64,000 bases of DNA from Candidatus Nitrosotalea bavarica (GTDB taxonomy: Archaea > Thermoproteota > Nitrososphaeria > Nitrososphaerales > Nitrosopumilaceae): positions 1 to 64,000 of the forward strand of contig NZ_FUYK01000009.1 in assembly GCF_900167955.1 (NCBI RefSeq), read 5' to 3'. The position numbers and the translations under genes were made by a program. This document shows, piece after piece, positions 42,956 through 55,720 of the stretch (the first letter of the stretch is position 1; each line of letters starts with the position of its first letter). A model generated the notes under the pieces. That model ran no database searches, was not told the origin of the DNA, and saw nothing but the letters and a program-made list of their open reading frames with translations.

Positions 42956-43453
42956 TTGCTAAGCAAAGGAAGAATAGTCATTTTGGCGTGTTTTGCCGGT
43001 CTTGGTGCTATGATGTTATTTTTCTATCTTTATGCAAATTCTTTTCAAAGTGATCTTGAAAAGGTAACGATTCAAGTTGATAGTGTAAATGTTCTTGATG
43101 AGAATAAATTAAATAAACGTGCACAGCTTGATGTAAGATTTAATCTTCAAAATCCCAGTTCCCTTACATTGACTGTTTCAGACATTAATTATGAATTGTT
43201 TACAAATGGAAAGAGTCTTGGGGATGGACATTTATCGACAGAAGATGTTCCAGAAGCTGGTAGACCTATACTTTTTGCAAATAACAATGCAACTTTACCT
43301 GATACATTTGATCTTGTATATAGCGACAATATTGCCAATGAATATTCTGCCATAACTAATCATCAACCAGTAAAATATGAAATAAAAGGCCAAGTAACTA
43401 TACAATCATTTTTGACAGAAATTACCAAAGATTTTGATGTAAGCGTTGGTTAG
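42956..43453 (+). CDS. Membrane-anchored LEA14-like beta-sandwich protein (paralogue 2)
   Basis: The 165-residue protein has an N-terminal anchor (residues 6-26) and a LEA_2-type domain with the pattern RFNLQNPSSLTLTVSDINYELFTNG and GDGHLS. It starts at TTG 42956. It shares layout with the genes at 16666 and 48905. Its function is unknown. Confidence 0.68.
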   Translation: MLSKGRIVILACFAGLGAMMLFFYLYANSFQSDLEKVTIQVDSVNVLDENKLNKRAQLDVRFNLQNPSSLTLTVSDINYELFTNGKSLGDGHLSTEDVPEAGRPILFANNNATLPDTFDLVYSDNIANEYSAITNHQPVKYEIKGQVTIQSFLTEITKDFDVSVG

Positions 43454-43848
43454 CCTAATCCCCAACTAATTTTGGTCTTTGGTGTAATTTTTACAAAAGG
43501 TGCTTCATTTTCTTTCCAAGGATCTTCTCTAACCCACGCAAATTTTTTATAAAATATTTCATAGAGTTTTTTGAATTGTAGGCCTTTCTCGATAAAAGTG
43601 GTAGAACCCTGAACAACAACAGCTTTGTGTTTTCCTGGTAAGTAAAGATCTACAGAAATTGCAACTTTATCATTCTTTTTGAGATTTGCATACTTTTTGG
43701 TATCATAGTCTGTTGCAAAGTAAAAGAAACCATCTTCAAAATAATATGATACTGGAGCAATATGTGGCACATCTTTTGCGCATGTAGCTATTCTACACCC
43801 TTCATTTTCCTTGAGAAATTTTGATTCTTTTATGGTAAATTTTAACAC
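43450..43848 (-). CDS. Pyridoxamine 5'-phosphate oxidase-like FMN-binding protein
   Basis: The 132-residue split-barrel protein has GCRIATCAKDVPHIAPVSYYFEDGFFYFATDYDTKKYANLKKND, read as the usual flavin-binding strands, and a C-terminal VKITPKTKISWG. It might bind FMN, F420 or haem; the family is diverse. It overlaps the LEA-like gene stop by 4 nt. Confidence 0.75.
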   Translation of the reverse strand: MLKFTIKESKFLKENEGCRIATCAKDVPHIAPVSYYFEDGFFYFATDYDTKKYANLKKNDKVAISVDLYLPGKHKAVVVQGSTTFIEKGLQFKKLYEIFYKKFAWVREDPWKENEAPFVKITPKTKISWGLG

Positions 43849-44035: not shown

Positions 44036-44746
44036 ATGATTGGTGATTTTTCACCAGAGGAAAAAGATGGCTTTTACAAAGCAGTCTTTTCTAGACGTGA
44101 TGTTAGGTCTCACTTTACTTCAGAATCAATCGATGAAGGAATACTTACACGAATACTAAATGCTGCACATCATGCACCATCTGTTGGATTCTCTCAGCCT
44201 TGGAATTTTATCCTCATTAAAAATGAGGAAACAAGAAAACAAGTAAGAGATTCATTTGATAAAGAACGAATCCGTGCTTCGACTCTTATTGAGGATCCAA
44301 AAAGGTCAAAGTATTTGTCACTTAGACTCCAAGGAATTTTAGATTGTGCAGTAAATGTATGCATAACGTATGATCCCACAAAGTTTGGTCCCTTTGTTAT
44401 AGGAAGATCAAGTATTCCAGAAACAGGCATCTATAGTGTTTGTTGTGCTATACAAAATCTCTGGCTTGCAGCAAGAGCAGAAGGGATTGGTGTTGGCTGG
44501 GTCAGTATACTTTCAAATGATGATCTTAAGAGAATTCTTGAAATTCCAGATCATGTAGTTCCTGTTGCTTATCTGTGTCTTGGTCATGTATCAAATTTTG
44601 CAGAAAAGCCGGATCTAGAGAGTGCAGGATGGTTACCTCGTCTTGGTTTGAAGGATGTTATCTTTTATGAAAAATGGAACCATGAAAATGATCCTAACTG
44701 GCAACAAATTCACGAGATGATTGTTTCAAACCTTGATTACGCTTAA
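44036..44746 (+). CDS. bluB: BluB-like nitroreductase (5,6-dimethylbenzimidazole synthase)
   Basis: The 236-residue flavoprotein begins FYKAVFSRRDVRSHFT and carries GFSQPWNFI, RASTLIEDP and EGIGVGWVSIL, close to BluB, which splits reduced FMN to make the lower ligand of cobalamin. A cobJ gene is also in this window, and cobalamin synthesis is known in Thaumarchaeota. ATG 44036 has an ATAATATG element about 26 bp upstream. Confidence 0.82.
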   Translation: MIGDFSPEEKDGFYKAVFSRRDVRSHFTSESIDEGILTRILNAAHHAPSVGFSQPWNFILIKNEETRKQVRDSFDKERIRASTLIEDPKRSKYLSLRLQGILDCAVNVCITYDPTKFGPFVIGRSSIPETGIYSVCCAIQNLWLAARAEGIGVGWVSILSNDDLKRILEIPDHVVPVAYLCLGHVSNFAEKPDLESAGWLPRLGLKDVIFYEKWNHENDPNWQQIHEMIVSNLDYA

Positions 44747-50319: not shown

Positions 50320-50652
50320 ATGGATGACAAGCTAGATACAATTTTCAAGCTTCAAAAAAATCTAGAGAAAATGATGAATCTTGAACGTTATCCAAAAGAC
50401 ACTCAGGGAAAGATTTCTGTACTTTGTACAGCAATAATTCATGAGGCAGTTGAGCTTCAGAGAAATACAGATTGGAAGTGGTGGAAAAAACCCACACCTT
50501 TTGATGAAGCAGCAGCTCGTGAAGAGTTGATAGATATTTGGCATTTTGTCATCCAGGCATCACTTGAGCTTAACATGACTCCAGATGATATTCTAAAAGA
50601 ATATCAAAAAAAGAATCAGATAAACAGGCAAAGACAGATAGACGGTTACTAA
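50320..50652 (+). CDS. All-alpha NTP pyrophosphatase, dUTPase/MazG-like
   Basis: The 110-residue helical protein has the metal motifs of the all-alpha NTP-PPase superfamily: EAVELQ (E-x2-E-like) and EELIDIWHFVI (EExxD). The KWWKKP segment resembles dimeric dUTPases. It probably removes dUTP or a damaged nucleotide. It overlaps the MtrA-like gene end by 4 nt. Confidence 0.8.
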   Translation: MDDKLDTIFKLQKNLEKMMNLERYPKDTQGKISVLCTAIIHEAVELQRNTDWKWWKKPTPFDEAAAREELIDIWHFVIQASLELNMTPDDILKEYQKKNQINRQRQIDGY

Positions 50653-51134
50653 ATTTTCTTAAAAGTCTTAACTATGCCTTCTAGTCTTGGAATATTTGCT
50701 TCGCCTATTTTATTTATGATTTTTACTTGTCTTTGAAATTTTAATACTTCTTTTTTTGTAACTGTTAGTATTGGATGTGGACTATGTGAACCAATAATTT
50801 TGTGATTCTCATCAATTCCATTTTTGTACAAACAAAGAAGAGAATCTCCTGGTTTGTGTCCCGTTGTATCTTTTCCACAAAGTATTATCATATCAATTTT
50901 TTCATTTGATAATACAGATCTTATCAGAGAATCAATTCCCTTGTTTTCAGAAAGTAGTCTACCAGCTATTGCAATCTCTTTGATAATATCTGAATGTGTA
51001 ATATCTTTTAGAAGACTAATACTTGATAGAGTACAAATTGTAATGTTTGATGTAGGATTTCCAAAGAATACTTCCTCCTCAATTGGAAGAAGAATTCTAC
51101 ACAATTCTCCTGCAATATCCTCAATTAAATTCAT
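50649..51134 (-). CDS. MtrA-like corrinoid-protein homologue (soluble)
   Basis: The 161-residue protein aligns by eye with subunit A of methanogen methyltransferase Mtr: VFFGNPTSNITICTL, IILCGKDTTGH, LYKNGIDENHKIIGS and a final FQRQVKIINKIG. H93 matches the cobamide-ligand histidine of MtrA. The C-terminal membrane helix of methanogen MtrA is absent. Its ATG overlaps the DegT aminotransferase stop by 4 nt. Methanogenesis is not expected here, so the role is unknown. Confidence 0.75.
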   Translation of the reverse strand: MNLIEDIAGELCRILLPIEEEVFFGNPTSNITICTLSSISLLKDITHSDIIKEIAIAGRLLSENKGIDSLIRSVLSNEKIDMIILCGKDTTGHKPGDSLLCLYKNGIDENHKIIGSHSPHPILTVTKKEVLKFQRQVKIINKIGEANIPRLEGIVKTFKKI

Positions 51135-52219
51135 TTTTTAGTTAACTTGTGTAATACTTTGGAAATATGATGTAGATCACTTTCTGTAACCAAAGGATTC
51201 ACTGGCAGACTTAGGACAGAGTTAGCAGCCCAATCAGTAAGAGGAAGTTTGAGGTCTTTTTTGTAAAATGGAGTCTTGTGTACTGGAATAGGATAGTATG
51301 CAGTTGCTCCTATACCTTGTGAGTTTAGTTGTTTCATTATTTTATTTCGATTTGCAGTAGCAATTGTGTAAAGATACCAATTTACATTTACACTATCTCT
51401 TTCTTCGGGTAAGATAACATTCAGATCAGATAATAATTCATTGAGTATTATTGCATTCTTTTTTCTTTTTTCCAGGAATTTTGGAAGTTTTTTCATCTGG
51501 ATTTTAGCTATTGCGGCACAAATTTCTGGAAGTCTTAGATTTAGTCCAAGTATTCTGGTATCATACCCATGAAGCATTCCATGATTTCGAATCTTGCGCA
51601 GTTTTTCAAAGAGGTTTTTATCATCTGTAACTATAGCTCCACCTTCTCCTGAGGTCATAACCTTAGCAGCGTACATGCTAAAGCAACCCATTTTTGAAAA
51701 TGTTCCAGATTGTTTTTTCTTGTATGTAGTTCCTAATGATTGACATGCATCTTCTATTATCTCAAGATTATTCTTATTTGAAATTTCAGAAATTTCATCC
51801 ATGTATGAAAAATTTCCATATAGATGAACTGGCATAATTACTTTGGATTTTTTTGTAATTTTCTTTTTGAGATCACTCGGATCCATAGTATAATTTTCTG
51901 GACGAATATCAACAAATACGGGCTTTGCTCCAACTGATACGATAGCGTTGGCAGTTGCTACAAATGTAAATGAGGGTATCAAAACTTCATCTCCTTGTTT
52001 TATGTCAAGGGCATAAAGTGTAGCTTGTAAAGCGGCTGTTCCTGAATTTACGGCTATTGCATATTTTGATTTTACAAAAGAAGCCAAAAGTTGTTCAAAT
52101 TCTCGTACTCTCTTTCCACCAGCATTTGCAGCAGATGTAAGAGATTTCTCTGTTAACACAGAGTGTACTTCATTTATTTCGTCTTTTTCTATAATTGGTA
52201 CATTTATTGGAATTTTCAA
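51131..52219 (-). CDS. DegT/DnrJ/EryC1-family aminotransferase
   Basis: The 362-residue PLP enzyme has IPSFTFVATANAI, EDACQSLG and the PLP lysine in FSMYAAKVMTSGEGG, followed by RNHGM. This family usually aminates nucleotide sugars, or makes amino-containing secondary products. It begins at TTG 52219 and is coupled to the MtrA-like gene, an unusual pairing. Confidence 0.87.
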   Translation of the reverse strand: MKIPINVPIIEKDEINEVHSVLTEKSLTSAANAGGKRVREFEQLLASFVKSKYAIAVNSGTAALQATLYALDIKQGDEVLIPSFTFVATANAIVSVGAKPVFVDIRPENYTMDPSDLKKKITKKSKVIMPVHLYGNFSYMDEISEISNKNNLEIIEDACQSLGTTYKKKQSGTFSKMGCFSMYAAKVMTSGEGGAIVTDDKNLFEKLRKIRNHGMLHGYDTRILGLNLRLPEICAAIAKIQMKKLPKFLEKRKKNAIILNELLSDLNVILPEERDSVNVNWYLYTIATANRNKIMKQLNSQGIGATAYYPIPVHKTPFYKKDLKLPLTDWAANSVLSLPVNPLVTESDLHHISKVLHKLTKK

Positions 52220-54931: not shown

Positions 54932-55720
54932 CTATTTTCTAGTCTGTTGCGGTTCTACAATATTATATTTGGACGTATAACCACGGGGGTTTATCATCAA
55001 GCCTTTATACATGTAAGTCGAGGAGTTTCCAATTATTACAGTAGTAATCATACCAAGCTTGTCATTGTGTTCTTCCATGTTTTCCAAGTCTGTTAAAACA
55101 ACTTCTTCAGATTCTCTAAATGCCCCTTTTACAATTGCTACTGGTGTATTGGGTAATCTATATTTTAAAAGAATTTTCCTTGTATCTTGTAATTGATGAA
55201 TTCTTTTTTTGCTTGCAGGATTGTATATTACAATAACAAAATCACCCTGAGCTGCTGCTTCAACTCTTTTTGTTATAATTTCCCAAGGAACAAGCAGATC
55301 ACTCATGCTTACCACAGCAAAATCTGTCATGAGAGGAGAGCCAACTAGCGCTGCACAAGAATTAAGTGATGAAACACCTGGAACTATTTCAACATTAAGA
55401 CCAGCCTTTCTGTCCCAACCCTCTTCTGCTAGAATCTCATAGATTAAACCAGCCATTCCGTATATTCCAGGATCTCCACTGGATACAAGTGAAACTATTT
55501 TTCCAGATTTTGCAAGATCAATGCATTGATGCGCTCTTTCTACTTCTTGTGTCATTGCATATCTATGAACTTCTTTGCCTTCTATTAGATCTGCAACCAA
55601 GTTAACATATGTCTCATATCCAACAATTGTATCACTTTCTTCAATTGCTTGCTTTGCTCGAAAAGTCATATGATCATGATGACCTGGTCCTACACCTACG
55701 ATAAACAGTTTACCGGTCAT
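54932..55720 (-). CDS. cobJ: Precorrin-3B (cobalt-factor III) C17-methyltransferase
   Basis: The 262-residue SAM methyltransferase has FIVGVGPGHHDHMT, the SSGDPGIYGMAGLIYE site and EIVPGVSSLN, diagnostic of CobJ/CbiH. It contracts the corrin ring in cobalamin synthesis. The other cob genes are not in the window. It is upstream of the F420-type oxidoreductase. Confidence 0.92.
   Translation of the reverse strand: MTGKLFIVGVGPGHHDHMTFRAKQAIEESDTIVGYETYVNLVADLIEGKEVHRYAMTQEVERAHQCIDLAKSGKIVSLVSSGDPGIYGMAGLIYEILAEEGWDRKAGLNVEIVPGVSSLNSCAALVGSPLMTDFAVVSMSDLLVPWEIITKRVEAAAQGDFVIVIYNPASKKRIHQLQDTRKILLKYRLPNTPVAIVKGAFRESEEVVLTDLENMEEHNDKLGMITTVIIGNSSTYMYKGLMINPRGYTSKYNIVEPQQTRK

Follow-up and report, generated by a model that had tools for sequence, protein, structure and literature searches.

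A conserved stand-alone MtrA-domain protein in ammonia-oxidising archaea without Mtr partners, and its PPOX-class neighbour

In methanogens, MtrA is considered the motor of the sodium pump, and the presence of a relative in an aerobic ammonia-oxidising archaeon (AOA) raises the question of what such a protein does there and with which partner. The gene in question lies in the 64,000-nucleotide stretch of Ca. Nitrosotalea bavarica DNA analysed here (the window), where a sequence-only reading had described it as an MtrA homologue coupled to a DegT aminotransferase and had raised the prospect of a corrinoid methyl carrier tied to an amino-sugar or secondary-product enzyme. We found no open-access paper on an AOA MtrA homologue and no biochemistry of any AOA member of the family. 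MtrA homologues in non-methanogenic archaea are mentioned only in general (PMC4915002), and MtrAH in other archaea and in bacteria has been discussed as a possible feeder of the Wood-Ljungdahl pathway (PMC9635834). The following features of the window are considered.

43450–43848, minus strand: PPOX-class split-barrel (flavin/F420-type) protein, 132 aa, GTG start (PF01243; orthology)
44036–44746, plus strand: BluB, 5,6-dimethylbenzimidazole synthase, for the lower ligand of cobalamin (TIGR02476, 238 bits against a cut-off of 150)
50320–50652, plus strand: dUTPase_2/MazG-like protein, convergent with the MtrA gene (PF08761, 65.6 bits)
50649–51134, minus strand: soluble MtrA-domain protein, 161 aa (PF04208; PDB 5laa; Foldseek; invariant residues)
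51131–52219, minus strand: DegT/DnrJ/EryC1 family PLP aminotransferase, TTG start (PF01041, 375 bits)
54932–55720, minus strand: CobJ/CbiH precorrin-3B C17-methyltransferase, for corrin ring synthesis (TIGR01466, 315 bits against a cut-off of 246)

The match of the 161-aa protein to the Pfam MtrA profile PF04208 was significant (4.2e-22; 79 bits against a cut-off of 25; residues 20–155), and a sequence search of the PDB matched MtrA crystal structures at approximately 1e-18 (5laa at 1e-18, 5l8x, and 8q3v). The AlphaFold model, based on an alignment of 24 AOA sequences, showed a Rossmann-like MtrA fold (pLDDT 86.6), and when this model was used as the Foldseek query, the only PDB entries below 1e-3 were the MtrA structures 5l8x, 5laa, 9qtr, and 9qts. 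The resemblance to MtrA had been said to extend along the whole length of the protein; profile, structure, and fold matches upheld the resemblance itself, but the first 19 or so residues fell outside the Pfam match. The maximum 19-residue hydropathy was 0.95, and the protein therefore has no membrane helix, as had been read from the sequence. It did not reach the NCBIfam cut-offs for MtrA (NF002126, 123.3 versus 161; TIGR01111, 74.8 versus 249). The protein is thus a member of the MtrA domain family, yet is not the MtrA subunit of the pump. With the MtrA subunit of the Na+-translocating methyl-H4MPT:CoM methyltransferase (MtrA-H) it shares the PF04208 domain and the cobalt-site residues; unlike that subunit, it has no C-terminal membrane helix, scores far under TIGR01111, and is encoded in a genome in which neither MtrE nor MtrH was found. 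The gene is under purifying selection, as indicated by dN/dS values of approximately 0.16–0.31 against congeners, and Candidatus Nitrosotalea records, at 92% identity, are among its closest named relatives.

Soluble single-domain MtrA proteins also occur in methanogens. The cytoplasmic homologues (170–180 aa; Methanothermus fervidus, 5laa) likewise have the same fold, a histidine ligand with a glutamate behind it, and no membrane helix (PMC4915002). These homologues are 60–97% identical to full MtrA and are encoded beside the Mtr complex, whereas the AOA protein shares approximately 32% identity in the structural alignment, comes from aerobes that lack Mtr, falls in a clade of its own, and differs in the tail pocket. 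The M. fervidus structure with bound cobalamin has His84 as the cobalt ligand and Glu54 holding this histidine; Asn55 holds the corrin ring, and the nucleotide tail is held or contacted by Thr53, Gly57, Val61, and Asn64 (PMC4915002). In our alignment, the equivalents of the first three residues were H93, E63, and N64, and those of the four tail residues were S62, G66, L70, and S73. E63, N64, G66, G92, and H93 were invariant in all 33 AOA sequences placed on the tree, and the GH and [ST]EN motifs were retained in 130 of 130 distinct AOA sequences; the ligand histidine recognised from the single sequence is therefore conserved among its orthologues. At the position of M. fervidus Val61, the AOA sequences carry a conservative replacement, and at that of Asn64, they carry Y, F, H, or S. 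These comparisons indicate that the cobalt site is intact and the tail pocket altered, so that a cobamide may be held weakly or differently, which counts against the reading that we favour below.

One explanation of these differences is that cobamide binding has been lost and that the fold has been kept for another role, such as regulation or the binding of a different tetrapyrrole. The changes in the tail pocket (N64 to Y/F/H and T53 to S in M. fervidus numbering), the clade-specific motif GRL[LF]SENKGI, and the relatively fast evolution of the MtrA protein compared with DegT are consistent with such a loss. However, the residues that hold the cobalt and the ring (H93, E63, N64, and G66) have stayed fixed while the AOA proteins have diverged elsewhere to 36–40% identity, a pattern that is hard to explain without a corrin, and we consider the loss of binding distinctly unlikely. 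The MtrA fold and the binding residues are well supported, and the invariant residues together with the modelled fold suggest that the AOA protein binds a cobamide.

To describe the distribution of the gene, we refer to families by the numeric labels f1–f17, of which f1 is Nitrosopumilaceae-like by its named members, while f2 and f8 are probably Nitrosocaldaceae-like and Nitrososphaeraceae-like, respectively. The MtrA gene was present in 58 of 63 f1 genomes, 4 of 4 f2 genomes, and both f3 genomes, as well as in all six f8 genomes of the phylum sample. A search dedicated to f8, incomplete assemblies included, found it in 53 of 70 genomes. In the maximum-likelihood tree, the AOA proteins formed a single clade (support 98/96) whose main parts were f8, f2 with f3, and f1, and the gene is thus most simply ancestral to the AOA and has been inherited vertically; f12 and f13 have longer MtrA proteins, which were placed elsewhere on the tree. 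The stand-alone MtrA relative is a strongly conserved, near-core gene of ammonia-oxidising archaea.

The sequence-only reading had stated that an ammonia oxidiser has no Mtr complex, and the searches for MtrH and MtrE agreed. MtrH was not found in f1, f2, f3, or f8 and was present in 8 of 101 relatives, all of other families; MtrE was found in none of the 101; and the genome of the window contained neither. On our best reading, the AOA MtrA protein neither pumps sodium nor belongs to an Mtr complex. MtrH, being absent from AOA, was rejected as a hidden partner. In other Thermoproteota, MtrA domains occur in fusion proteins, with thymidylate synthase (L213:265-1578), with the pterin-binding DUF4346 (L216:395-1627), or with both (L219:913-2412), an unexpected one-carbon architecture. 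These fusions also place the MtrA domain outside methanogenesis, but they carry pterin-binding or thymidylate-synthase-like domains that AOA lack, and the L219 fusion alone is placed close to the AOA clade, where its branch is very long. DUF4346 and ThyA were rejected as separated halves of such fusions: no DUF4346 was found in AOA, and ThyA was found in none of the AOA searched, with one exception.

The methionine synthase of the window's genome, MetH, is split (L201:3274-6776) into an 838-aa protein, which combines the pterin, B12, and activation domains, and a separate homocysteine methyltransferase of 322 aa; a divergent weak match to MTHFR follows these genes. With all these domains already present in the split MetH, MtrA is not needed to supply it with a corrinoid domain. 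A PF01717 (MetE-type) domain was not found in the window's genome, and across the relatives its presence does not track that of MtrA. MtrA was accordingly rejected as the methyl donor of a core methionine synthase. A Pfam search for B12-binding domains found such proteins in nearly all genomes, none of them specific to MtrA carriers.

These results bear on the possibility that the AOA protein is a catalytic methyl carrier, in which a His-on cobamide would pass a methyl group from a donor enzyme to an acceptor and the PPOX protein would serve only as the reductive activator from cob(II) to cob(I). Every characterised MtrA carries methyl groups (PMC4915002), the His-Glu dyad of methyl-cobalt chemistry is intact in the AOA proteins, and the fusions to DUF4346 or ThyA in other archaea of the phylum point to one-carbon chemistry. 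Nevertheless, AOA lack MtrH and DUF4346, the methyl-pterin modules that are known as partners or occur in fusions, methionine synthesis in the window's genome is already covered by a complete split MetH, and a MetE-type domain is missing from that genome. Furthermore, the MesA-type synthases, which are predicted users of MtrA, are confined to methanogens (PMC7857596). A catalytic methyl carrier of this kind is therefore rather unlikely.

Both open reading frames lie at the positions given in the sequence-only reading, and the overlap between the MtrA start and the DegT stop was found as described: on the minus strand, the junction reads ...CTAAAAAATGAATTTA, with the DegT stop codon TGA at 51131–51133 and the MtrA ATG at 51132–51134 (an ATGA overlap). 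If this coupling reflected function, the MtrA protein would be a corrinoid methyl carrier working with DegT in amino-sugar or secondary-product synthesis. In addition to the overlap, DegT precedes MtrA in 69 of the 73 f1 loci with enough upstream sequence, and in one f3 genome DegT, an ArsA ATPase, PPOX, and MtrA stand in a row on one strand (L035:4619-8162). However, the f1 block CobJ-(LLM)-TyrS-hypothetical-DegT-MtrA-dUTPase-PfkB-BluB is fixed throughout, opposite-strand genes included, and the unrelated divergent TyrS, dUTPase, and PfkB are as fixed as DegT, so that the adjacency carries little specific information. Either gene has also been lost alone: DegT is deleted and MtrA kept in at least four f1 loci (L107, L121, L122, and L144), and MtrA is deleted and DegT kept in two genomes, G264 (108 bp from DegT to dUTPase) and G042 (DegT overlapping dUTPase). 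The pair is frozen only in f1; f2 has MtrA and no DegT orthologue, and in f8 the two genes are far apart; in G067, 0.8 Mb separates them. The order of the f3 row suggests that the f1 pair may have arisen by the loss or movement of the intervening genes. With losses on both sides and synteny restricted to one family, DegT is unlikely to be a functional partner, and the proposed link to an amino-sugar or secondary-product enzyme is improbable. On our best reading, the ATGA coupling is a gene-order feature of the Nitrosopumilaceae and not the sign of a shared pathway.

Other arrangements were seen around these genes. In f8, DegT adjoins ArsA (L185) or the hypothetical 187-aa gene (L188). As in f1, the dUTPase_2/MazG-like gene and MtrA converge in part of f8 (L036, L037, and L152–L179); ThyA, by comparison, was found in only one of the AOA searched. 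In several genera of f8, the immediate neighbour of MtrA, either upstream or downstream, encodes a 322-aa protein of a family without a Pfam match (L037:6830-7798; L152–L179).

The gene order outside f1 pointed to a different and older neighbour. In f2, in f3, and in several genera of f8, the gene immediately preceding MtrA encodes the PPOX protein, with a gap of 1–37 bp in the loci read closely, and the PPOX orthologue in the window is located 7 kb from MtrA, divergent from BluB across a 187-bp gap. CobJ, BluB, and an F420-type reductase had been noted near MtrA in the sequence-only reading; CobJ and BluB scored above their cut-offs, whereas the LLM oxidoreductase fell just short of its own (230.4 versus 231.4, TIGR03560). 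In some f8 genomes, a BtuR/CobO corrinoid adenosyltransferase gene lies divergently upstream, and in one f8 locus (L034), CbiD, CbiG, and CbiX lie within 7 kb; here, PPOX-MtrA is found between the divergent BtuR/CobO and a MetK-CbiD-CbiG-CbiX stretch (L034:6548-15021). Among f1 genera with genomes at least 90% complete, nine had both MtrA and PPOX, five had MtrA only, none had PPOX only, and six had neither (one-sided Fisher p = 0.012, for genera that are not independent). Some observations count against a partnership: five f1 genera have MtrA without a recognisable PPOX orthologue, one genome has PPOX without MtrA, and MtrA is solitary or has unrelated neighbours in several genera of f8. The joint absence of both genes from small, possibly streamlined genomes may also be general gene loss. 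PPOX is nonetheless the likeliest candidate partner of MtrA, ahead of DegT, and gene order and co-occurrence suggest that the two proteins act together.

The AlphaFold model of the PPOX protein had a split-barrel fold (pLDDT 95.9). Its Foldseek matches were split barrels that bind F420, FAD, FMN, or heme (2hq9, 5jv4, 4qvb, 5jab, and others; E-values of approximately 1e-7 to 1e-8) and included the F420-dependent biliverdin reductase Rv2074. Against the NCBIfam profiles, the sequence scored under every F420-family cut-off (34.4 versus 85.6 for TIGR04023, and lower for the others). A functional analogue of the proposed partner is CobR, the corrin reductase of Brucella, a small flavin protein of the FAD flavin-reductase family whose reduction of Co(II) to Co(I) precedes adenosylation (PMC4083273). 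CobR is of the flavin-reductase type, whereas the AOA PPOX protein belongs to another family, and no likeness between them was detected by sequence; the analogy is one of proposed role.

The reading that we tentatively favour, at a probability a little short of even, is that the AOA MtrA protein is a soluble, cytoplasmic carrier of a His-on cobamide and that the PPOX protein, not an amino-sugar enzyme, handles its cobalt. With H93 on the cobalt and E63 behind the histidine, the cobamide would be held in the base-off/His-on state. The PPOX protein, a putative FMN or F420 binder, would keep the bound cobalt in a reduced state or return it to that state, and the reduced cobamide could then be adenosylated, methylated, or delivered in the aerobic cell. 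A further proposal, which we regard as unlikely, is that PPOX-MtrA constitutes a corrinoid redox module of aerobic archaea that has so far gone unrecognised. In this module, MtrA would present a base-off cobamide, Co(II) would be reduced to Co(I) by the PPOX protein (with FMN or F420), and the cobamide would then be acted on by BtuR or a methyl donor.

What is new is the conservation, in aerobic AOA, of an MtrA protein without Mtr partners and with a PPOX neighbour. The conservation of an MtrA relative where neither the pump nor a known methyl-pterin partner accompanies it suggests a different function for the fold in aerobes. Such organisms must constantly contend with the oxidation of cob(I) and cob(II), and the occurrence of a corrinoid carrier and a flavin-type partner beside B12 genes provides a testable hypothesis for how AOA keep cobalt reduced despite oxygen. 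AOA rely on the B12 enzymes methionine synthase, methylmalonyl-CoA mutase, and ribonucleotide reductase and have been proposed as major vitamin B12 producers (PMC4303638). If the redox-module proposal is correct, PPOX-MtrA would fill the role of a CobR-like corrin reductase in these proposed producers.
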